Notes under the pieces: generated by a model
The model's input: the letters and a program-made list of their open reading frames with translations, nothing else
The model's database searches: none
Told to the model about the DNA's origin: nothing
Assembly: GCF_018678075.1 (NCBI RefSeq)
Contig: NZ_JAHHIR010000030.1
Location: 30,584 to 94,583 of the forward strand
DNA from: Epibacterium ulvae
GTDB taxonomy: Bacteria; Pseudomonadota; Alphaproteobacteria; Rhodobacterales; Rhodobacteraceae
Reading direction: 5' to 3'
DNA length: 64,000 nucleotides
In this document: positions 53,988 through 63,940 of the stretch, piece after piece
Numbering within the stretch: the first letter of the stretch is position 1
Layout of the letters: each line of letters begins with the position of its first letter
Made by a program: the position numbers and the translations under genes

Positions 53988-54980
53988 CTATGCCAGATCC
54001 GGTGCGATCGGGACCAACACGCGGCCACGCACCTCGCCGGTCAGGAATTTGGGCGCGGTCTCGATCACCCGGTCCAATGGCACTTCGACCATCATCTGAT
54101 CCAGCTTGGCCGTGTCCAGGTTTTCGGCCAGCTGTGCCCAGGCCATTTCACGCTTTGCACGCGGCACCATAACACTGTCGACCCCGGAAAGGGTCACGCC
54201 GCGCAAAATGAACGGGGCCACCGACGACGGCAGATCCATACCGCCCGCCAACCCGCAGGCCGCGACAACGCCGTCATATTTTATGGCAGACAATACATTC
54301 GCCAGAACGGTGCTGCCGACAACATCAATCGCGGCAGGCCAGCGTTCCTTGGCCAGTGGGCGAATTTTTCCCGATAATTCCTCCCGTCCAACAATGGTTG
54401 TCGCACCAAGGGATTTTAGGTAATCGCCCTCTTCGGGACGACCTGTGGCGGCAGCCACCTGATAGCCTTTGCCCGCGAGCAAGGTGACAGCCACGCTGCC
54501 CACGCCCCCGGCCGCCCCTGTCACAAGGATCTCTCCCTGATCCGGGCGCACGCCGTTTTGTTCCAGCGCCATAACACAAAGCATCGCGGTATAGCCCGCC
54601 GTGCCAATGACCATCGCCTGTTTCAGGCTGATCGCTTCGGGCAGTTTGACCAGCCAGTCGCCACGCACCCTGGCGCGCCCGGCCAAACCGCCCCAATGTT
54701 TCTCACCAACACCCCAACCGTTCAGAACCACCTTGTCGCCGGGTGTAAAATCCGGATGGCTACTGTCGCGCACAATGGCCGAGAAATCGACACCCGGCAC
54801 CATCGGAAAGCTGCGCACAACCGGTGCTTTGCCTGTGATCGCCAGCGCGTCTTTGTAGTTCAACGTGGAATAGGCAACGTCGACCAGCACATCCCCTTCG
54901 GGCAAATCCGCTTCATCAACCTCGGTCAGGCGCGCGGTGTAACTGTCGTTCTCATTCTCGATCAGGATAGATGCAAACAT
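53988..54980 (-). CDS. acuI: Acryloyl-CoA reductase (MDR superfamily)
   Basis: 330 residues. Zinc-free medium-chain reductase: GroES-like N-domain ([29 protein letters not shown]), NADPH motif [30 protein letters not shown] near residue 150, and a C-terminal QAxxL-type lid. It matches AcuI/YhdH. AcuI reduces acryloyl-CoA to propionyl-CoA, which detoxifies acrylate from DMSP cleavage and drains the 3-hydroxypropionate route. 15 bp after acuR on the same strand, so it is in the acuR operon; a reading frame of a methyltransferase ends 18 bp away on the other strand. Confidence 0.9.
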
Positions 54981-54995
54981 GGTCGAACCTTTATT

Positions 54996-55643
54996 CTAGG
55001 GGGCAAGAAGTGTCATGAAGGTGGTCATAAACAGCCGAAGCGGTGCGGGATCGCGCTCCAGTTTGGCGCGCAGCACCGCACCCTCCCAGCCGATCCAGAA
55101 AAAGGCGGCCAGACTGGCAGGATCCTTGTGCGCGTCCAAATCACCTTGGCTTTGGGCCTGCCGCAAACAGGTTTCAAGGCGGGCTTGCCAGCCTTCAAAC
55201 GTTGCGGTCAGCTTGGCGCGATAGGCCTCGGGCAGGGTGCCCATTTCTTGGCCCAAGTTTCCAACCAGACAGCCGCGTTTGAAGTCGTGCCGCGCCATGC
55301 CAGCGATCGCGTCTTCTGCGAAATCCGATACACGCGCGATGGCAGGCCGGTCGGTGTTCAGAAAGGTCGCATCCAACTTGCGCAGGAAATAGGCATCATA
55401 GGCCTCGATCAGGGTTATGCCAAAGTCGGATTTAGAGCGGAAGTAGTGATAGAAATTTCCCTTGGGCACGCCTGCGGTCTTTAGGATTTCATCCACGCTG
55501 GACGCGCCATAGCCTTTTTCGGTCAAAAATTCCAAGCCGACCCGGACCAACCGGTTGCGTACATCTGATGCCTCGGGCGTGCGGCGGGGGCGGCCGCGAC
55601 GACGGGGGGATGAGGGGGCGTTGGGCGACGGTTGTGAGGTCAT
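54996..55643 (-). CDS. acuR: TetR-family regulator AcuR
   Basis: 215 residues. Arg-rich disordered N-terminus (about 1-25), TetR helix-turn-helix (GYGASSVDEILKTAGVPKGNFYHYFRSKSDFG, residues about 45-75) and an effector domain. The gene order acuR-acuI matches Rhodobacter sphaeroides, where AcuR represses the operon and is released by acrylate. A perfect palindrome starts 5 nt upstream of its ATG, so it very probably represses itself and acuI. Confidence 0.88.
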   Translation of the reverse strand: MTSQPSPNAPSSPRRRGRPRRTPEASDVRNRLVRVGLEFLTEKGYGASSVDEILKTAGVPKGNFYHYFRSKSDFGITLIEAYDAYFLRKLDATFLNTDRPAIARVSDFAEDAIAGMARHDFKRGCLVGNLGQEMGTLPEAYRAKLTATFEGWQARLETCLRQAQSQGDLDAHKDPASLAAFFWIGWEGAVLRAKLERDPAPLRLFMTTFMTLLAP

Positions 55644-55647
55644 GAAT

Positions 55648-55675
55648 ATTTATTAGACGGATTCGTCTAATAAAT
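55648..55675. promoter_or_regulatory. Perfect 12-bp inverted repeat, predicted AcuR operator
   Basis: ATTTATTAGACG (55648-55659) and CGTCTAATAAAT (55664-55675) are exact inverted complements separated by 4 nt. It lies immediately before the acuR start codon, the usual place for a TetR-family autoregulatory operator. Confidence 0.75.
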
Positions 55676-55716
55676 GCAAAGGAAACCTGCATAAAACGTC
55701 ACGATGAAAAAATACC

Positions 55717-56640
55717 TTATAATGCTTGTTGCCACAGACCCCGGATGACCCGTAAAAGCGCCGCAATAACCGGCCCCTCTGCGCGCTGGGTTGGGGTGAT
55801 AAAACTGAGGCACGCGGGCAGCGCCACCGTCTCACACAGCGCGATGCCGACGGACTGCTTTTGGTTCAGCGCGATGGACTCCCGGCTGAGGCACAGACCT
55901 ATCCCGGAATGTACCATCTCCATCATCGAGGATTCCTGATCCACCAAAGCCACGACATTCTGCGTACAGCCATGCTGAGCAAATACGGTTTTCAACAATC
56001 GGTGATGGACGGAATTCTCGGGCGTGCCAATCCACGGCAGGGCGGCAAGTTCTTCCCAGGATGCGGTCTCGATGCTTTTCTGCCAGCCGACGGGGCCCAC
56101 AACGCGATATGAAAAATCCGCCAATTTGACCGCGCTTAGGTCGCCTCCCAGTTTCGAGTGTTCCGGTTCGATATCTTCCGGTTTACTCAGGTAAAACCCG
56201 GCGTCCAGCTGGTTGCGCCTGATGCGTTCAATGGTCTCCCCGCTAACCCCGTGACGCAGTTCTGTCGCGACATCCGGGTAGTCTTGGTTCAGCGTTTTCA
56301 GCAGCTGTCCCAAGCGAATGAATTCCGGATCAACGATCGTCCCGATCCTGAGCTTGCCGCTGACCCGCCCCACATGTTTGCGGGCGCTGCGTTGAAAATC
56401 GGCTGCCGCATTTAGGGTGCGTTCGGCCAGTGCGATCAGATTTGCGCCTTCGGAGGTGAGCTGAAGCCCCGATGACGTCCGTTTAAACAGGGTCAGACCC
56501 GTATCCTCGCTCAACCGTTTGATCTGGTGACTGATCGCAGGCTGGGTCAGGTTCAACACATCGGCGGCCGCGCTCACGCTGCCTTCGCGCACGACGGTTA
56601 CAAACGCCAGAAGCGCGTTTAAGGTTGGCAGGTCTCTCAT
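55717..56640 (-). CDS. LysR-family regulator, DddR candidate
   Basis: 307 residues from ATG at 56640; a GTG at 56664 would add eight residues, and neither has a clear Shine-Dalgarno. Winged helix LLAFVTVVREGSVSAAADVLNLTQPAISHQIKRLSEDTGLTLF, then an effector-binding domain. It is divergent from the DddA/DddD-type genes, the arrangement of LysR-type DddR in Marinomonas and Halomonas DMSP clusters. Likely activates them in response to DMSP or a breakdown product (inference). Confidence 0.85.
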   Translation of the reverse strand: MRDLPTLNALLAFVTVVREGSVSAAADVLNLTQPAISHQIKRLSEDTGLTLFKRTSSGLQLTSEGANLIALAERTLNAAADFQRSARKHVGRVSGKLRIGTIVDPEFIRLGQLLKTLNQDYPDVATELRHGVSGETIERIRRNQLDAGFYLSKPEDIEPEHSKLGGDLSAVKLADFSYRVVGPVGWQKSIETASWEELAALPWIGTPENSVHHRLLKTVFAQHGCTQNVVALVDQESSMMEMVHSGIGLCLSRESIALNQKQSVGIALCETVALPACLSFITPTQRAEGPVIAALLRVIRGLWQQAL

Positions 56641-56723
56641 ATAAAAAATTTCTATATTGTCCACTCAAATTTGTCATTAGCGTTTTTGAAATCCTGGCCC
56701 TAGCGTGCCGGAAAACGCGCGGT

Positions 56724-56742
56724 GTTTGATCAAGGTTTGATC
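56724..56742. promoter_or_regulatory. Tandem GTTTGATC repeat in the LysR/GMC promoter region
   Basis: GTTTGATC occurs at 56724-56731 and 56735-56742, 11 bp apart, one helical turn. TTGATCAA (56726-56733) is itself palindromic. Candidate LysR-site for the divergent regulator. Confidence 0.5.
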
Positions 56743-56776
56743 GCATCGCCGACCGGGAGAAAAAGGTGAATTTATC

Positions 56777-58447
56777 ATGGGCACACCCGCTGAGAGTGAG
56801 ACGTTTGACTATATCGTCGTCGGCGCAGGCTCGGCGGGATGTCTCTTGGCAAACCGGCTCAGCGCCAATCCGAGAAATCGGGTTTTGTTGCTGGAAGCGG
56901 GCAAACCCGACACCTACCCGTGGATCCATGTGCCGGTTGGGTACCTCTATTGTATCGGCAATCCCCGCGCCGATTGGATGTATAAGACCGAGGCCGACAC
57001 AGGGCTGAACGGGCGATCGCTTCTCTATCCACGTGGCAAAACCCTGGGCGGCTGTTCGTCGATCAACGGCATGATCTACATGCGGGGGCAGGCGCGCGAT
57101 TACAACAACTGGGCCACTCTCACCGGCGAAGAGGCCTGGAACTGGGACAACGCGCTTGAGGATTTCAAAGCGCATGAGGACCACTACAAGCTCGACAAAG
57201 GCGACCCAGCCACCGGCAGCAATGGCCGCTTTTCCGACGCGCATGGCCATGGCGGTGAGTGGCGCGTGGAAAAACAGCGCCTACGGTGGGATGTGCTTGA
57301 CAGTTTTGCGGACGCCGCAACCGAGATTGGCATCGAGAAGACCGATGATTTCAACGGCGGCGACAACGCCGGGGTGGCCTATTTCGATGTGAACCAACGG
57401 TCTGGATGGCGCTGGAACACCTCCAAAGCCTTTTTGCGCCCCGCGAAAACCCGCCCGAACCTCACCATCTGGACTGAGGCGCTGGCGGAAAAACTCACCC
57501 TTGAGCATGACGACAGCGGAGCGTTGCGTTGCAAAGGTGTCTTGGTCAATCGACAGGGAAATAGCATTGCGGTGACAGCCCAAAAAGAGGTGATCCTCTC
57601 CGCCGGTGCCATCAATTCACCGCAGATTTTGCAGCTGTCCGGCATTGGACCGGCGGACGTGTTGAAGCGCCACGGAATAGACGTCGCGCTGGACGCGCCG
57701 CATGTGGGGCAAAACCTGCAGGACCATTTGCAGATCCGCGCGGTGTTCAAGGTCAATGGAACCGCGACGTTGAACACGCTGGCGAATTCCTTGGTCGGTA
57801 AGATGAAAATCGGTCTTGAATATGCGTTCAAACGGTCCGGCCCAATGTCCATGGCGCCCAGCCAGCTGGGCGCGTTCACCCGGTCGGATCCGGCGCGCAA
57901 ACATGTAAACCTTGAATATCACGTGCAGCCGCTCAGCCTTGAGGCGTTTGGAGAGGAACTGCACGGCTTTCCCGCAATGACCGTCTCGGTTTGCAATCTT
58001 AACCCGACCAGCCGTGGCTCGGTTATGATCACGTCCCCTCGGTTCAAGGACGCGCCCAAGATCGCGCCCAATTATCTGGATACCGAAGATGACCGCAAAG
58101 TTGCCGCTGACAGCCTGCGCCAAGTGCGTGAGATTATGGCGCAACCGTCGATGGCCGCCTATGCGCCGGAAGAGTTTAAACCGGGCATCCAATATCAAAG
58201 TGACGACGAGTTGGCCAAGCTGGCGGGCGACATTGCCACCACCATTTTTCACCCCGTTGGCACTGTGAAAATGGGCCATGCCGACGATGACACGGCCGTT
58301 CTTGACCCGCACTTGCGCCTTAAAGGCGTGGCGGGGCTGCGGGTGGTGGATGCTTCGGTCATGCCCGAAATCACCTCGGGCAACACAAATGCGCCAACCC
58401 TGATGATTGCGGAAAAAGCCGCGCGTTGGGTTTTGGCTGGCGAATAA
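56777..58447 (+). CDS. dddA: GMC-family alcohol dehydrogenase, DddA-like (choline-dehydrogenase-related)
   Basis: 556 residues. FAD-binding VVGAGSAGCLLANRLSANPR near the N-terminus, GMC signature GGCSSINGMIYMRGQARDYNNW, second signature GAINSPQILQLSGIGP, and the C-terminal catalytic IFHPVGTVKMGHAD...GNTNAPTLMIAEKAA. It is a choline/alcohol dehydrogenase relative. Next to a DddD gene, the best match in knowledge is DddA of Halomonas HTNK1, which oxidises 3-hydroxypropionate to malonate semialdehyde. The co-cluster is the main reason for the name; choline or another alcohol could be the substrate. 49 bp before the CoA-transferase gene. Confidence 0.8.
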   Translation: MGTPAESETFDYIVVGAGSAGCLLANRLSANPRNRVLLLEAGKPDTYPWIHVPVGYLYCIGNPRADWMYKTEADTGLNGRSLLYPRGKTLGGCSSINGMIYMRGQARDYNNWATLTGEEAWNWDNALEDFKAHEDHYKLDKGDPATGSNGRFSDAHGHGGEWRVEKQRLRWDVLDSFADAATEIGIEKTDDFNGGDNAGVAYFDVNQRSGWRWNTSKAFLRPAKTRPNLTIWTEALAEKLTLEHDDSGALRCKGVLVNRQGNSIAVTAQKEVILSAGAINSPQILQLSGIGPADVLKRHGIDVALDAPHVGQNLQDHLQIRAVFKVNGTATLNTLANSLVGKMKIGLEYAFKRSGPMSMAPSQLGAFTRSDPARKHVNLEYHVQPLSLEAFGEELHGFPAMTVSVCNLNPTSRGSVMITSPRFKDAPKIAPNYLDTEDDRKVAADSLRQVREIMAQPSMAAYAPEEFKPGIQYQSDDELAKLAGDIATTIFHPVGTVKMGHADDDTAVLDPHLRLKGVAGLRVVDASVMPEITSGNTNAPTLMIAEKAARWVLAGE

Positions 58448-58496
58448 CTTCGATCTTCTGACAAGACAGCTCCGATAGATGGGCTCTGGAGGGAAA

Positions 58497-61007
58497 ATGT
58501 ACTGCTCCTTTTCAAATCTCCCCTTATACGGGGTCAAGGTCGTCGATTTTGGGCAATATATTGCAGGCCCGGCGGTGGGCATGCTGTTGGGGGATCTGGG
58601 CGCGACCATTGTCAAAATTGATCCGCCCACTGGCCCCATGTGGGACAGTCCGGCCAATGCTGCGCTGAACCGAAACAAGGTCATCGTCAATCTGGATCTC
58701 AAGACCGAGGACGGGCTGGCCAAGGCGCGTGACTTATGTGCGCAAGCGGATATGATCATTGAAAATTTCCGCCCCGGCAAGCTGGCGAAACTGGGGCTTG
58801 ATTTTGTGCAGATGCGCGCGGAGCGCCCTGAGCTGATCACCCTTTCGCTGCCGGGATTTGCGTCGAACGATGAGGCGCGGCGGGAACAGCGAGCCTTTGA
58901 AAGCGTGGTTGCTGCAAGCTCCGGCGTGTTTACCGACATGGGCTTGAACCGGGTTTTGATGGGGTTCAACCCATCCTTTTCGCCGCTGCCGCTCGCATCC
59001 GCGTATGCCGCACAAATTGGGGCCTCATCCGCGGTGCTTGCGCTGCAATCGCGCCAGATCACCGGATTGGGGGATCAGATCGAAGTCCCCTTGGCGGCGG
59101 CGGTCATGGAAGGGCTGTGTTACAACTCAATCAGCGTGGCCGACATGCCTGAACGCTACCTGACCCAGCGCGAAGTCGAGATCATGCGACGCCGGACCGA
59201 AGGTCTGCCGATGAATGTGACCTATGAGGACCTGCAGGAGCTGCTGGACCCGTTCTTTCGCAGCTACATGTGCAAGGATGGGCGCATGTTCTATGTGGTC
59301 TGCCCGAGCCATAAGCACCACGCAAAACGCTGCCTCGAAATCCTCGGCATCTATGATGAAATGGTCGACGAGGGTCTGACCTCGGAAGAGGACACCTACA
59401 AACCCTACGCCGAATGGTCCTCGGATACTTCGCTTGGGGTCTATCCGATGCCGAAATTCTGGGCCGACAAATTGGCCGAACGGATGAAAGAGGTCTTTAT
59501 GACCCGGACCTCCCACGAATGGCAGCGGATGTTTGGGCGTGGCGGCGTGCCGGCCGCACCGCAGCGTTGGTTGCAGGAGTGGGTGAACGATGAATATGCC
59601 GAACAATCCGGCCTGATGATCGACGTCTATGACCCAGAATATGGTGAGATGACCCAGCCCGGCCCGGTTGTCTGGCTGGAAGAAAGTGGAGAGGAGTCGC
59701 TGGCGCCGGAACCCCGTCGCTGGGTCTCCTTTGATGAGGCGATGACGATTCTCATGAAACATCGCACGGAAATTCCGGCACCCTCTGAGGCGAATGCCCA
59801 GGACGGTTGGTTGAGCGGCCTGCGTGTCCTGGATTTGTGTAATGTGATCGCGGGCCCCCATTCCGCATGCTACCTGGCGCGGTTCGGGGCCGAGGTGATC
59901 AAGCTCGACCCCTCCCAGCCGCTTTATGACTGCTGGAATACGGTGATCTATGGTCTGTCGCAGATGCGGGGCAAACGCTCCATTCTGGCGGATATGAAAA
60001 CCCACCACGGGCGTCAGGTGTTTGAAGACCTTGTAAAAAGCGTGGATGTGATCGTCTGGAATGCACCGGATACCCAGATCAAGCGGATGGGGCTGGACGC
60101 CGAAAGCCTGCGCCGTCTCAACCCCAATGCGATCTTCTGCAAGCTGGACTGTTTTTCGGGCGTGCGGCGCGGGGTGCGGACCGATTATATTGGCTATGAC
60201 GATCTGGTGCAGGCGGTGACCGGCATCATGCTGCGGTTCGGCGGCGCGATGGATCGGCCCGAAGAACATGCGCATGTGGGCACCATCGACGTGATGTGCG
60301 GCTTTGGCGGCGCGCTCAGCGTGGCGGCGGCGCTGTATCAGAAGTACCGCCATGGGCGTATCGGGCGCGGGCGCACTTCGCTGGCGGCCAACAGTGGCCT
60401 GCTGCAGATCCCGTTTGCCTATGACTATCGGGGCAGGGGCCTGTTTGATGAACCCTCAGGGCCCGAGCTGAATGGCTATGACGATCTGTCCCGCTTTTAT
60501 TGGACCGCGTCTGGCACCTATATCCTGCTTAGCGCTTATGAAAGCGATCTGGCGCGGTTCCGCGAGGTGGATGGGCTTAGCGATCTGCCGGATATCCCCG
60601 TGGACGAGCGCGCGGCGTTTCTCGCCACGGCGTTCCAGCAGCACCCGGCCACAGAGTGGGTAACGCGTCTGCGCGCCGCAGATATTGGGGTGGCGATTTG
60701 CGACAACATCGACGCGCTGCGCTCGGAAAATGCACGCCCTACGGATGGCACACCGGGGACAGACAATGGCAGCTATTCCTTCTCAACCTATGCGGATCAT
60801 CCCTGCGGGCACGAGGTCACGCAATTGGATCCTTATGGCGTGCGCACGACCCGCGGGCAGGTTTGCGCGCTCAGCCCTTCCGAGAAATTCGGCGCTTCGA
60901 CGCGCAGCGTTCTAAAAGAGCTGGGGTATGTGGATCAAGCGATCGATGCGATGATCCGCTCGGGCGGGGTGAGCGAGAGTTGGAGCGCAGAATACCTGCC
61001 AAGCTGA
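58497..61007 (+). CDS. dddD: Two-domain CaiB/BaiF CoA-transferase, DddD-type DMSP CoA-transferase/lyase
   Basis: 836 residues from ATG at 58497, which follows GGAGGG; an ATG at 58479 lacks one. Two class III CoA-transferase domains: about 5-280 and 445-760, each starting with a GxxVxDxxxxxAGPxxxxxLxxxGAxxxKxDP motif. The second has the catalytic Asp598 in TIDVMCGFGGA; the matching place in the first reads LASAYAAQIGA, so the Asp is absent. Length, domain pair and the GMC/LysR neighbours fit DddD, which turns DMSP into DMS and 3-hydroxypropionyl-CoA using acetyl-CoA. A relative acting on another onium compound cannot be excluded. Followed by a strong terminator. Confidence 0.85.
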   Translation: MYCSFSNLPLYGVKVVDFGQYIAGPAVGMLLGDLGATIVKIDPPTGPMWDSPANAALNRNKVIVNLDLKTEDGLAKARDLCAQADMIIENFRPGKLAKLGLDFVQMRAERPELITLSLPGFASNDEARREQRAFESVVAASSGVFTDMGLNRVLMGFNPSFSPLPLASAYAAQIGASSAVLALQSRQITGLGDQIEVPLAAAVMEGLCYNSISVADMPERYLTQREVEIMRRRTEGLPMNVTYEDLQELLDPFFRSYMCKDGRMFYVVCPSHKHHAKRCLEILGIYDEMVDEGLTSEEDTYKPYAEWSSDTSLGVYPMPKFWADKLAERMKEVFMTRTSHEWQRMFGRGGVPAAPQRWLQEWVNDEYAEQSGLMIDVYDPEYGEMTQPGPVVWLEESGEESLAPEPRRWVSFDEAMTILMKHRTEIPAPSEANAQDGWLSGLRVLDLCNVIAGPHSACYLARFGAEVIKLDPSQPLYDCWNTVIYGLSQMRGKRSILADMKTHHGRQVFEDLVKSVDVIVWNAPDTQIKRMGLDAESLRRLNPNAIFCKLDCFSGVRRGVRTDYIGYDDLVQAVTGIMLRFGGAMDRPEEHAHVGTIDVMCGFGGALSVAAALYQKYRHGRIGRGRTSLAANSGLLQIPFAYDYRGRGLFDEPSGPELNGYDDLSRFYWTASGTYILLSAYESDLARFREVDGLSDLPDIPVDERAAFLATAFQQHPATEWVTRLRAADIGVAICDNIDALRSENARPTDGTPGTDNGSYSFSTYADHPCGHEVTQLDPYGVRTTRGQVCALSPSEKFGASTRSVLKELGYVDQAIDAMIRSGGVSESWSAEYLPS

Positions 61008-61091: not shown

Positions 61092-61829
61092 CTAATCGCG
61101 CCAGCTGCGATCTTCTTGGTCGAGGGACGATTTGAGGTATTCAAAGTGGTTTTGCGCCATCCCGCGATAGGCTTCCCAGCCCTCGGCCGTGTTGCGCGCA
61201 ATCTCATCGCTCAGGACTGAGATCGGTTGACCACTGGACAGGGCCAGAATTTGCGTCTTGGCTGCTTTTTCAAAGAAATACAGGTCCTCAAACGCATCGG
61301 CGACGGTCTCGCCCGTGACGGTCACCCCGTGGTTGCCCATAACAAGCACTGTATTGCCCTGCATCGCCTCAGCCAGATGCAGACCTTCCTCAGAGCTGTC
61401 AGAGATCCCGCCAAATTCCAGGTCGTAACCAACCCGCCCCCAGAAGCGCGCGGTGTTGTTGTCCATCGGGATCAGCGTCGGATCCTTCAGGCACGCCAGC
61501 GCCGTCGCATAGGGGGAGTGGCAATGCAACATGACCCGCGCTTGCGGCACCGCACCATGAAGGGTCCCATGAACCGCCCAGGCCGATGGATCCGGCGCAT
61601 TGGGGCTTGACATGACCGTGTCGTCATCCACGTCCAGCAGCAACAGATCGCTGGCCCGGATGGTCGCAAAATGCTGCCAGCGGGGGTTCAGCAGGAACTG
61701 GCGCCCATCTTCGGACACAGCTGCGCTAAAGTGGTTACCGACGGACTCGCTCCACCCGAATTTGTGACACAGCCGGAAAGCGGCTGCCAAATCCTGGCGC
61801 AACTGGGTGAGTGTGTCTGGCGCGGTCAT
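61092..61829 (-). CDS. Class II aldolase/adducin-family protein
   Basis: 245 residues. Metal-ligand pair in VMLHCHSPYATALACL (HxH) and a third His in MGNHGVTVTG; the catalytic Glu would be in the SDSSEEGL region. Fits L-fuculose-phosphate aldolase-like enzymes that cleave or form C-C bonds, but adducin-type members may be decarboxylases or have unknown roles. Its start overlaps the stop of the dioxygenase gene by 4 bp, so the two are made together. Substrate unknown. Confidence 0.82.
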   Translation of the reverse strand: MTAPDTLTQLRQDLAAAFRLCHKFGWSESVGNHFSAAVSEDGRQFLLNPRWQHFATIRASDLLLLDVDDDTVMSSPNAPDPSAWAVHGTLHGAVPQARVMLHCHSPYATALACLKDPTLIPMDNNTARFWGRVGYDLEFGGISDSSEEGLHLAEAMQGNTVLVMGNHGVTVTGETVADAFEDLYFFEKAAKTQILALSSGQPISVLSDEIARNTAEGWEAYRGMAQNHFEYLKSSLDQEDRSWRD

Positions 61830-62938
61830 GCTTTGAACCGCCCTTCAGAGATCAACGCGCGATAGGTCGAGCGCAGCTCGGCGCGGTCGGTATAGGTGCC
61901 ACGCAAATACCGCTCACCGCTGGTGGCCGAATAGGCCGCGCGCCCATGCACGATACGGTGGTTGTCAAAGACGATGCATTCGGTGGCTTTGAGCGTGAAC
62001 TTCATGATGTATTTGTCGTCCTGCAACAGCTTTCCGAACCGGCAGAACGCAGGGTAGTAGTCGTCCAGAACCTCTTGCGGCAGATCAATCAGATCCAGCA
62101 TGTGTTGGCTAATGGTCAGGCCCGAAACTTCGCCGTGGTGATCCAGCTCGATCACCCGCTGGTAGCTGCGCATGTCATAGGTGTCATGTTCGCAATAAAA
62201 CGGGATTTCGGTCTCCGCCAGCAGGCGGAAGCCTTCGGGGTCGATCTCACGGAAATCATTGGCCGCAGCAACACCGTCCCCAAAGAGGTTCAGCCCCCCG
62301 TCAACGGAATTGGCCCGCATGTGCAAGTATTGGATGCCTGGCGCGGATTCTTCGGCCGGCACGTCGGTGTGCAGCTCAAGCGCCGCCGCAGTATAGGCGG
62401 TGTTGGTCGGGTTGATATGCGTGTGCACATCGAAATAGTTGCCAAAGAACGTCGGACGCACCGCACCGGCCAGATTGGCCAATTCGGTCAGGGCGTCGTC
62501 GGTGTCTGGCATGTCGGTGATGACCGAGATGCCTTCGACGATCATGGCTTCCAACCAAGTGCCGAGCTTGTCTTTGTCGGATTTCAACTCGTCCAAGGTG
62601 AACCGTGTGACATCAGGATAGTGGTCGCCAAACCAAGCTGTGCGAGGCAGATCGGCAGGGTCAAACCGGGGATTGCCTGTGGCGTATACATCTAATGTTG
62701 CCACGGGCATGCGGGTCACGTGATCTTCGCCTTGAACCTCAGCTGCTGTCGCTTTTGGTGCGGTTTCCAGATGGAAAATGTCAAAGGTGCGTTCACGCGT
62801 GGTGGTGTTGAACGACGTGGGACAATTGTCGCGCAGCCAGTAATAGTTGAAGTATTTGGCCTCTGCACCATGCAGGCTAACCCAGAGGCCTTTTTCCTCG
62901 AGGGCTACGCTGCTGTCTTGGGGGGCGTGAATGTTCAT
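61826..62938 (-). CDS. Gamma-butyrobetaine dioxygenase-like Fe(II)/2-oxoglutarate oxygenase
   Basis: 370 residues from ATG at 62938 (AGGACC upstream). N-terminal DUF971-like domain (WLRDNCPTSFNTTTRERTFDIFHL) and TauD-type catalytic domain: HxD in ALELHTDVPAEESAPGIQYLHM, distal His in IVFDNHRIVHGRAAY, and the 2-oxoglutarate-binding Arg in LRGTYTDR. This architecture is that of gamma-butyrobetaine/trimethyllysine hydroxylases, which add OH next to a quaternary-ammonium tail. Translationally coupled to the aldolase gene and divergent from a LysR gene. Carnitine synthesis is the textbook role; an onium-catabolic role is suggested by the neighbourhood. Confidence 0.85.
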   Translation of the reverse strand: MNIHAPQDSSVALEEKGLWVSLHGAEAKYFNYYWLRDNCPTSFNTTTRERTFDIFHLETAPKATAAEVQGEDHVTRMPVATLDVYATGNPRFDPADLPRTAWFGDHYPDVTRFTLDELKSDKDKLGTWLEAMIVEGISVITDMPDTDDALTELANLAGAVRPTFFGNYFDVHTHINPTNTAYTAAALELHTDVPAEESAPGIQYLHMRANSVDGGLNLFGDGVAAANDFREIDPEGFRLLAETEIPFYCEHDTYDMRSYQRVIELDHHGEVSGLTISQHMLDLIDLPQEVLDDYYPAFCRFGKLLQDDKYIMKFTLKATECIVFDNHRIVHGRAAYSATSGERYLRGTYTDRAELRSTYRALISEGRFKA

Positions 62939-63021
62939 GGCTGGTCCTGTTCGCCGATATGTGATTTTCCCTGTAATTATGCCTGCGAAAAACACTTGAA
63001 TAAAAGATCTGAAAACCTGAA

Positions 63022-63049
63022 CATAAGTTAAGTTTGGAGTTAACTTATG
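63022..63049. promoter_or_regulatory. Perfect 10-bp inverted repeat over the LysR start codon
   Basis: CATAAGTTAA (63022-63031) and TTAACTTATG (63040-63049) are exact inverted complements; the right arm contains the ATG of the LysR gene, the 8-nt loop holds its GGAG. A T-N11-A-type LysR site or an RNA hairpin masking the start. Confidence 0.6.
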
Positions 63050-63940
63050 GACCGTCTTCCCCCCTTGCGCCTGCTGGAAACATTTGACGCTGTCTGCCGT
63101 CTTGGTTCCATGCAGCGTGCCGCGCAGTTGTTGAATGTCTCGCCGCCTGCAATTTCACAGGCGGTGCGCAGTCTAGAGCAGGAGATTGGCGCGGATCTGA
63201 TGGACCGCAGCGCCAAACCGGCCATTCCAACCGAGGCCGGCGAACGTCTGGCGCGGGCGACCCGCAACGGGTTGAGCCTGATCGAAGACACCATCGTTGA
63301 GATCCGCGAAGAGGCGGGGTTGAGCGAGACTGTAATTACGCTGTGCTGCACCATCGGCATGGCAACCCAGTGGCTGATGCCGCGCCTATCCGGGTTTTAT
63401 GACCGCCACCCGGAGATCACGGTGAACATCCAAGCGCCGCCCTCGGATCGCCCCATCCTGTCGCGCGGTACCGATATCGCCCTGCGCTATGGGCGCGGCG
63501 ACTGGAAGGACGGGACAACGGTGAAACTGTTTGATGAGGTGGTCTGCCCGGTCGGCACGCCGGATGTCGTGGACCGTGCTGTGGAGCGGGGGCCGTTGAA
63601 CACCGCCTATCTGATTGAGGTCAGGTCTGGCGGCGGACCGCGCTGGCAAAGCTGGTCTGACTATTTCAAGGAGCGCGGCCTATCACGTGCACCGCGCCCC
63701 AGCGAGACCTTTGACAACTATGTGCAGGCGGTTCAGGCCACGCTGAACGGGCGTGGCATCATGTTGGGCTGGCGCTCCATTACCCAGCGTCTGGTTGACG
63801 ACGGCTCGTTCAAACAATGGCCCGCAGCAACCCATAACTTTGGCACCGGCTACTACCTGTCCTATTCCGCCAGCTCAAGCACCAAGGAAGCAACGCAAAA
63901 GTTCCTCGACTGGGCCGTAGAAGAAGCGAACTGGGTTTGA
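63047..63940 (+). CDS. LysR-family regulator (GcvA-like)
   Basis: 297 residues. Winged helix at residues about 5-65 (LRLLETFDAVCRLGSMQRAAQLLNVSPPAISQAVRSLEQEIG) and a GcvA-type effector domain (LPRLSGFYDRHPEITVNI, DIALRYGRGDW). It is divergent from the dioxygenase-aldolase pair, 108 bp away, and its start sits in a perfect inverted repeat, so it is the likely regulator of that pair. The last 60 bases of the window hold no gene. Confidence 0.9.
   Translation: MDRLPPLRLLETFDAVCRLGSMQRAAQLLNVSPPAISQAVRSLEQEIGADLMDRSAKPAIPTEAGERLARATRNGLSLIEDTIVEIREEAGLSETVITLCCTIGMATQWLMPRLSGFYDRHPEITVNIQAPPSDRPILSRGTDIALRYGRGDWKDGTTVKLFDEVVCPVGTPDVVDRAVERGPLNTAYLIEVRSGGGPRWQSWSDYFKERGLSRAPRPSETFDNYVQAVQATLNGRGIMLGWRSITQRLVDDGSFKQWPAATHNFGTGYYLSYSASSSTKEATQKFLDWAVEEANWV

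Follow-up and report, generated by a model that had tools for sequence, protein, structure and literature searches.

Two adjoining genes of Epibacterium ulvae, for an oxygenase and an aldolase-fold protein, as a candidate carbon-shortening module for small onium acids

Near the end of a 64,000-nucleotide stretch of Epibacterium ulvae DNA (contig NZ_JAHHIR010000030.1, positions 30,584 to 94,583; hereafter the window), two overlapping genes, here called OXY and ALD, face a divergent lysR gene. We tentatively propose, at rather less than an even chance, that OXY and ALD act in two steps to shorten a small onium acid by one carbon, most likely turning beta-alanine betaine into glycine betaine. In the first step OXY would hydroxylate the carbon next to the carboxylate, which is the second carbon from the charged nitrogen in a C3 onium acid, and so give a 2-hydroxy acid. 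ALD, acting with O2 in the manner of TqaM and NovR, would then release the carboxyl carbon as CO2 and leave an acid one carbon shorter. Beta-alanine betaine (3-trimethylammoniopropionate) would pass through 2-hydroxy-beta-alanine betaine to glycine betaine and CO2, and the sulfur analogue dimethylsulfoniopropionate (DMSP) would yield dimethylsulfonioacetate. The class of mechanism is better supported than the substrate, and another chain length, with delta-valerobetaine shortened to gamma-butyrobetaine, is almost as good a fit. With this proposal, a conserved gene pair that has no annotated function in marine and plant-associated alphaproteobacteria receives a role that can be tested.

Conservation of the gene pair

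An initial annotation of the window had placed the three genes and a 4-bp overlap of OXY and ALD, and re-reading of the sequence returned the same coordinates, strands and overlap (Table 1). The contig ends 60 bp past lysR. The annotation also proposed that the genes form a module facing a dedicated LysR gene, and a scan of genome contigs showed the arrangement to be conserved, beyond chance and beyond one strain. Of the 80 loci analysed, the best of 168 encoding a relative, 76 have ALD next to OXY in the same orientation and 69 a divergent LysR gene, with both together in 65. Both genes were readable in 75 loci, and 74 of these offer an in-frame start that gives the 4-bp overlap, as counted by a script that picks such a start whenever there is one. 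When loci from plasmid records and further genomes were added, ALD adjoined OXY in 109 of 119 (10 duplicates included); in the other 10 no ALD reached 42% identity and 70% coverage, a partial ALD being present in L086 and L116.

The carriers are scattered alphaproteobacteria, marine and plant-associated. The pair is patchy, occurring in 27 of 394 genomes sampled from the family (E <= 1e-90) and in 5 of 385 genomes of a class-wide sample searched with a divergent query (E <= 1e-75). ALD-type proteins are spread more widely than OXY (87/385 genomes, E <= 1e-45), so part of the ALD family works without OXY. Three rhizobial plasmids (NZ_CP067074, NZ_CP072175 and NZ_CP072138) match OXY over residues 10-261 only and carry ALD about 3 kb away; the pair therefore looks broken there.

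OXY belongs to the TmpA/BBOX group

OXY matched the TauD family in Pfam (PF02668, 117.6 bits). It scored 231.5 bits with the TmpA model NF049936 (curated cut-off 400), 228.4 bits with the gamma-butyrobetaine dioxygenase (BBOX) model TIGR02409 (cut-off 414.75) and 141.4 bits with the trimethyllysine dioxygenase (TMLD) model TIGR02410 (cut-off 268.3), each time under the cut-off. The closest solved structures by sequence were TmpA (6npb, 166 bits) and then BBOX (117 bits), and both ranked top when the OXY model was searched with Foldseek. Since the model is of moderate quality (predicted local distance difference test, pLDDT, 68.8), no pocket-level claim is based on it.

In the alignment of 120 OXY rows, duplicates included, the iron triad H197, D199 and H338 and the 2-oxoglutarate (2OG) arginine R350 were present throughout, as in 2OG oxygenases of the TauD/TfdA type. 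F176, N186, S284, H286 and Y356 were invariant as well, and Q285 was found in 119 rows, with a glycine in the remaining one. In BBOX and TmpA the anionic end is held by two asparagines, to which TmpA adds an arginine (PMC9296572). OXY retains only the first of the two (N186; N191 and N292/293 in BBOX, N187 and N287 in TmpA), and since Gln-His stands in place of the second, where TmpA has Asn-Arg, OXY has an altered anion end. The main clade has an aromatic cation cage; in the 14 rows of the divergent clade, Glu or Asp takes the first cage position and E257 is replaced by Arg or Gly. These data bear out the earlier reading of OXY as butyrobetaine-dioxygenase-like, in the form of an oxygenase of the TmpA/BBOX type with a mostly conserved onium-type cage.

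Several OXY members carry the source name 'gamma-butyrobetaine dioxygenase', and OXY might be an ordinary gamma-butyrobetaine hydroxylase making carnitine, with ALD unrelated to it. We consider this very improbable. The score lies far under the BBOX cut-off, 119 of the 120 rows have Gln for the second carboxylate Asn, and loci with carnitine genes (type A, below) already have a CoA-type set leading from gamma-butyrobetaine to carnitine; moreover, the constancy of ALD beside OXY (76/80 loci) is unlike the pattern of a passenger.

The window OXY is without 9 residues of its N-terminal part (in frame, about 62717-62740) that the other 119 rows have, which is either a natural deletion or an assembly error.

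ALD resembles non-heme iron oxygenases

ALD matched Aldolase_II in Pfam (PF00596) and, at 349.5 bits (cut-off 260), the NCBIfam model NF005689/PRK07490, named 'hypothetical protein'. His102, His104, His167 and Ala83 each occurred in 110 of 110 ALD rows. We take Ala83 to stand at the presumed position of the catalytic Glu73 of E. coli FucA. Measured against the FucA type, with Glu73 and three metal-binding histidines, ALD keeps the histidines and has Ala at the presumed Glu73 position in all rows. The residue aligned to Ala83 is Ala in NovR and Gly in TqaM.

The AlphaFold2 model of ALD (pLDDT 91.8) had as its nearest folds 3ocr, whose entry title gives no function, and the iron oxygenases TqaM, NovR and pyruvic oxime dioxygenase (POD), with which 3ocr ties. 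ALD thus shares with the NovR/TqaM/POD-like proteins the class II aldolase fold, the three-His site and the closest fold match; it is about 20% identical to TqaM, and the iron oxygenases are closer to it than OtnC and HMPD decarboxylase are. Judged from the model, ALD is likely a non-heme iron oxygenase and not an aldolase. The retro-aldol cleavage by a metal aldolase that had been suggested for it is not supported, given the fold neighbours and the Ala in place of the presumed catalytic Glu. If this is true, the PRK07490 family, filed as aldolase, would move to iron-oxygenase chemistry.

In the type A loci L106, L110 and L119, carnitine dehydrogenase is followed by a further class II aldolase-like gene, of the PRK07044 type and only distantly related to ALD (27-28%; Table 1).

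Gene neighbourhoods and alternative substrates

Loci were called type A when at least two of the following lay within ~10 kb of OXY: acyl-CoA dehydrogenase (ACD), ADP-forming CoA ligase (ACS), carnitinyl-CoA hydratase (ECH), carnitine 3-dehydrogenase (CDH) and BKACE. Type B loci have a 3-hydroxyisobutyrate dehydrogenase (HIBADH)-like dehydrogenase (HIB) or an MR/MLE enzyme, or an aldehyde dehydrogenase and a GMC oxidoreductase together. CDH was named by NCBIfam (737 bits, cut-off 592) and BKACE by Pfam (PF05853, 335 bits); ACD, ACS, ECH and BKACE stayed under their NCBIfam cut-offs, and the type A names also rest on the annotation of plasmid records from Thioclava, Sulfitobacter W027 and Palleronia. 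Among 109 distinct OXY rows, 23 fell under type A alone and 28 under type B alone; 2 qualified as both and 56 as neither, and of the latter 45 had at least 7.5 kb on each side. These counts are conservative: L056, for example, with ACD and a short ACS stretch, was counted as neither. Both types were found in both OXY clades, and on a quick tree with long-branch warnings the minimum number of changes was 9 for type A, 7 for type B and 1 for dddD (counted over the 98 rows that had a positive label or enough flanking sequence). The link to onium compounds drawn in the initial annotation is supported in part of the loci, where butyrobetaine/carnitine genes lie near OXY-ALD. Genome-level co-occurrence with carnitine genes was dropped as uninformative; most of 60 sampled genomes carry them.

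Outside its own pair, the window OXY has its nearest kin in the type A loci L108 and L027. In the window's genome (97% complete), CDH, MR/MLE, HIB and ACD were not found at the thresholds used (HIB: E <= 1e-70). With these genes missing and the contig ending after lysR, the module is seen without such partners in this strain. Shortening of beta-alanine betaine to glycine betaine suits type A loci, where routes would converge on glycine betaine, and type B loci, where alcohol and aldehyde dehydrogenases could supply the acid; it also suits a strain without carnitine enzymes. If carbon-shortening is true, the module would open a new entry from C3 or C5 betaines, possibly also from DMSP, into glycine betaine or butyrobetaine metabolism.

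Some observations weigh against the main proposal. The gene order in L139 and L140 is ALD-OXY-ACD-ACS-ECH, which suggests a product entering the gamma-butyrobetaine-CoA route; BBOX can hydroxylate delta-valerobetaine at C3, the third carbon from the nitrogen; and 4c24 ties with NovR in the single-sequence search. The same chemistry may act on a longer chain, alpha-oxidation of delta-valerobetaine giving gamma-butyrobetaine, which would then go on by the CoA route and become carnitine and glycine betaine. ACD-ACS-ECH lie near OXY-ALD in both OXY clades and directly adjoin it in L139 and L140, bacteria form delta-valerobetaine from trimethyllysine (PMC8976029, PMC11773067), and trimethyllysine hydroxylase acts at C3, the fourth carbon from the nitrogen, to give 3-hydroxytrimethyllysine (PMC5644716). 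However, BBOX attacks delta-valerobetaine at C3 and not at C2, 84 of the 109 distinct loci have no type A set within ~10 kb, and the window's genome is without ACD or CDH at the thresholds used, so a gamma-butyrobetaine product would have no such outlet there. We hold the longer-chain substrate to be unlikely but keep it because of the L139/L140 gene order and the action of BBOX on the third carbon. It would, if true, explain how some rhizobia make gamma-butyrobetaine, reportedly by an unknown route (Bazire and colleagues, 2019).

Alternatively, much as the initial annotation suggested, OXY may hydroxylate trimethyllysine, with ALD as a metal-dependent aldolase that splits hydroxytrimethyllysine into trimethylaminobutyraldehyde and glycine and so feeds gamma-butyrobetaine. 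The butyrobetaine/carnitine neighbours, the aldehyde dehydrogenase present at some type B loci and the position of OXY within the BBOX/TMLD superfamily are consistent with this. However, the TMLD model gives only 141 bits against 228 for BBOX and 232 for TmpA, the presumed FucA Glu is absent from ALD, whose model ranks with the iron oxygenases, and the type A set as defined includes no aldehyde dehydrogenase. The hydroxytrimethyllysine aldolases described in PMC11016064 are pyridoxal phosphate (PLP) enzymes. We find this reading as a whole quite unlikely.

ALD could also be a non-oxidative decarboxylase, OXY providing a 3-hydroxy acid that a HIBADH-type dehydrogenase would convert to the beta-keto acid. 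L-threonate dehydrogenase and OtnC are a precedent for a dehydrogenase working with a non-oxidative decarboxylase. However, HIB was absent near the 23 type A loci and from the window's genome (E <= 1e-70), and OtnC and HMPD decarboxylase are farther from ALD than the iron oxygenases are, which makes this route decidedly improbable.

The preferred reading, oxidative shortening of beta-alanine betaine, can be widened to an unrecognised O2-dependent alpha-oxidation of 3-onium propionates, in which DMSP would go to dimethylsulfonioacetate beside dddD in this strain and the PRK07490 proteins would be iron oxygenases. In this wide form we think it unlikely; if true, DMSP would be used with release of neither dimethyl sulfide (DMS) nor methanethiol.

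The type B genes form a recurrent set of HIBADH-like, GMC, MR/MLE and aldehyde dehydrogenase genes near OXY-ALD (L029:2619-8959; L107:879-6266; L111:10230-17472; L113), for which we know of no described pathway. It possibly serves glyceryl-betaine or amino-alcohol catabolism; on paper, catabolism of betaine-lipid (DGTA/DGTS) head groups would account for each gene. In 14 of the 80 loci an ABC transporter and an extra LysR stand beside OXY-ALD (L041:12954-16904 and orthologues). With its PhnT2/PotA-like ATPase (below cut-offs) and SBP_bac_8 binding protein, this transporter is perhaps the importer of the OXY-ALD substrate.

Relation to known systems

TmpA hydroxylates trimethylaminoethylphosphonate next to the phosphorus, and oxidative C-P cleavage by TmpB follows (PMC8177086). 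In TmpA/TmpB, as in PhnY/PhnZ, a 2OG hydroxylase that attacks an amine or onium compound next to its anionic head is paired with a second iron oxygenase (PMC8177086). TmpA is also the closest solved relative of OXY, and OXY-ALD, for which a carboxylate substrate is proposed, would be the carboxylate counterpart of TmpA/TmpB. In contrast to TmpB and PhnZ, ALD has the class II aldolase fold and not an HD-domain di-iron centre. In fungal 2-aminoisobutyrate synthesis, TqaL/TqaM likewise cluster a 2OG oxygenase with an iron oxygenase of class II aldolase fold, and TqaM is described to decarboxylate a 3-amino-2-hydroxy acid oxidatively, as proposed for ALD. The aziridine made by TqaL, however, is opened by a third enzyme, TqaF, and the system belongs to fungal secondary metabolism. 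NovR/CloR and pyruvic oxime dioxygenase differ in their substrates, and the descriptions consulted name no 2OG-oxygenase partner. BBOX and TMLD of the carnitine pathway share the superfamily and cation cage of OXY, which stays under both cut-offs, and ALD is not of the PLP fold, unlike the 3-hydroxytrimethyllysine (HTML) aldolase.

Of the published descriptions found, the nearest concerns a genomic island of Arctic SAR11. It carries two BBOX genes, a class II aldolase, HIBADH-type and aldehyde dehydrogenase genes, and also genes for BKACE, carnitine dehydrogenase and choline dehydrogenase (Sadler et al. 2025, PMC12421898). From annotation, its authors read it as glycine betaine uptake and production (PMC12421898); its likeness to OXY-ALD is one of gene names. 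The initial annotation knew of no described pathway using the pair. Among the matches listed in the open-access PMC literature, as far as their text is accessible, no reaction is assigned to it, but a BBOX and class II aldolase gene combination had already been reported in the SAR11 island. One seaweed metabolomics paper makes no mention of beta-alanine betaine.

Table 1. Location of the module and of associated features (window positions unless a locus is given)
Feature	Position	Strand	Description
ALD	61092..61829	-	245 aa, class II aldolase/adducin fold; predicted non-heme iron oxygenase/decarboxylase
OXY	61826..62938 (from ATG of MNIHAP)	-	370 aa, TmpA/BBOX-group Fe(II)/2OG oxygenase; predicted onium-acid hydroxylase
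OXY/ALD stop/start overlap, 4 bp	61826..61829	-	read from sequence
lysR, divergent from OXY-ALD	63047..63940	+	HTH_1 and LysR_substrate domains
Candidate LysR operator, palindrome TAAGTTAA-N8-TTAACTTATGTTC	63019..63047	-	between OXY and lysR
DddD-like gene adjoining module	58479-61007	+	two CoA_transf_3 stretches
PRK07044-type genes	L106:28258-28992, L110:28277-29011, L119:18882		type A loci

The divergent LysR gene and its candidate operator

The best NCBIfam models for LysR were a choline-sulfate regulator and GcvA, both under cut-off. OXY and ALD are presumably co-transcribed, and LysR may regulate them in response to an inducer. The palindrome listed in Table 1 matches exactly and, from its sequence, is a candidate LysR operator; in 100 shuffles of the window there were 0 matches at up to 3 mismatches. 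Its right arm was found again in several other genera. A search of 12 genomes for the core, allowing up to 3 mismatches, gave some match in 10, and in 8 a match lay at most 100 bp upstream of OXY. Zero-mismatch sites were confined to the window's genome and its closest relative, and within the window's genome nothing but this site matched, read on both strands. Somewhere in 10 of the 12 genomes a backwards control pattern matched too, so lone weak core matches elsewhere carry little meaning. A T-N11-A scan of nine intergenic regions gave nothing useful.

In the closest relative (L026:6876-9017 / L118:11370-15655), lysR is followed by two genes, one for a CocE/NonD-type hydrolase that scored above its cut-off and one resembling sodium:solute symporters, which stayed below the cut-offs. 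This region is not visible in the window's genome because the contig stops before it. As general partners of the module, the NonD hydrolase and an Opp-type transporter were rejected, being present in few loci.

The adjoining DMSP-type cluster

The initial annotation had pointed to the neighbouring dddD gene and to its co-occurrence with the module as a check. The adjacency is true in this window but not general, with a full-length dddD in 1 of the 80 loci; a second match (27% over one third of the query) was left out of this count. Genome-wide, dddD was found in 7 of 34 OXY-positive genomes, one of them (G109) by a partial match, and in 3 of 26 others, of which G023 carries a broken OXY stretch. 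The check thus did not favour a link, and dddD was rejected as a functional partner. The protein that we take to be DddD reached no NCBIfam cut-off. It belongs to a DMSP-type cluster at 53988-61007 that adjoins the module and comprises AcuI, a LysR, a choline-dehydrogenase-like GMC protein and the DddD-like protein, and AcuI scored 534.8 bits with its NCBIfam model (cut-off 440).
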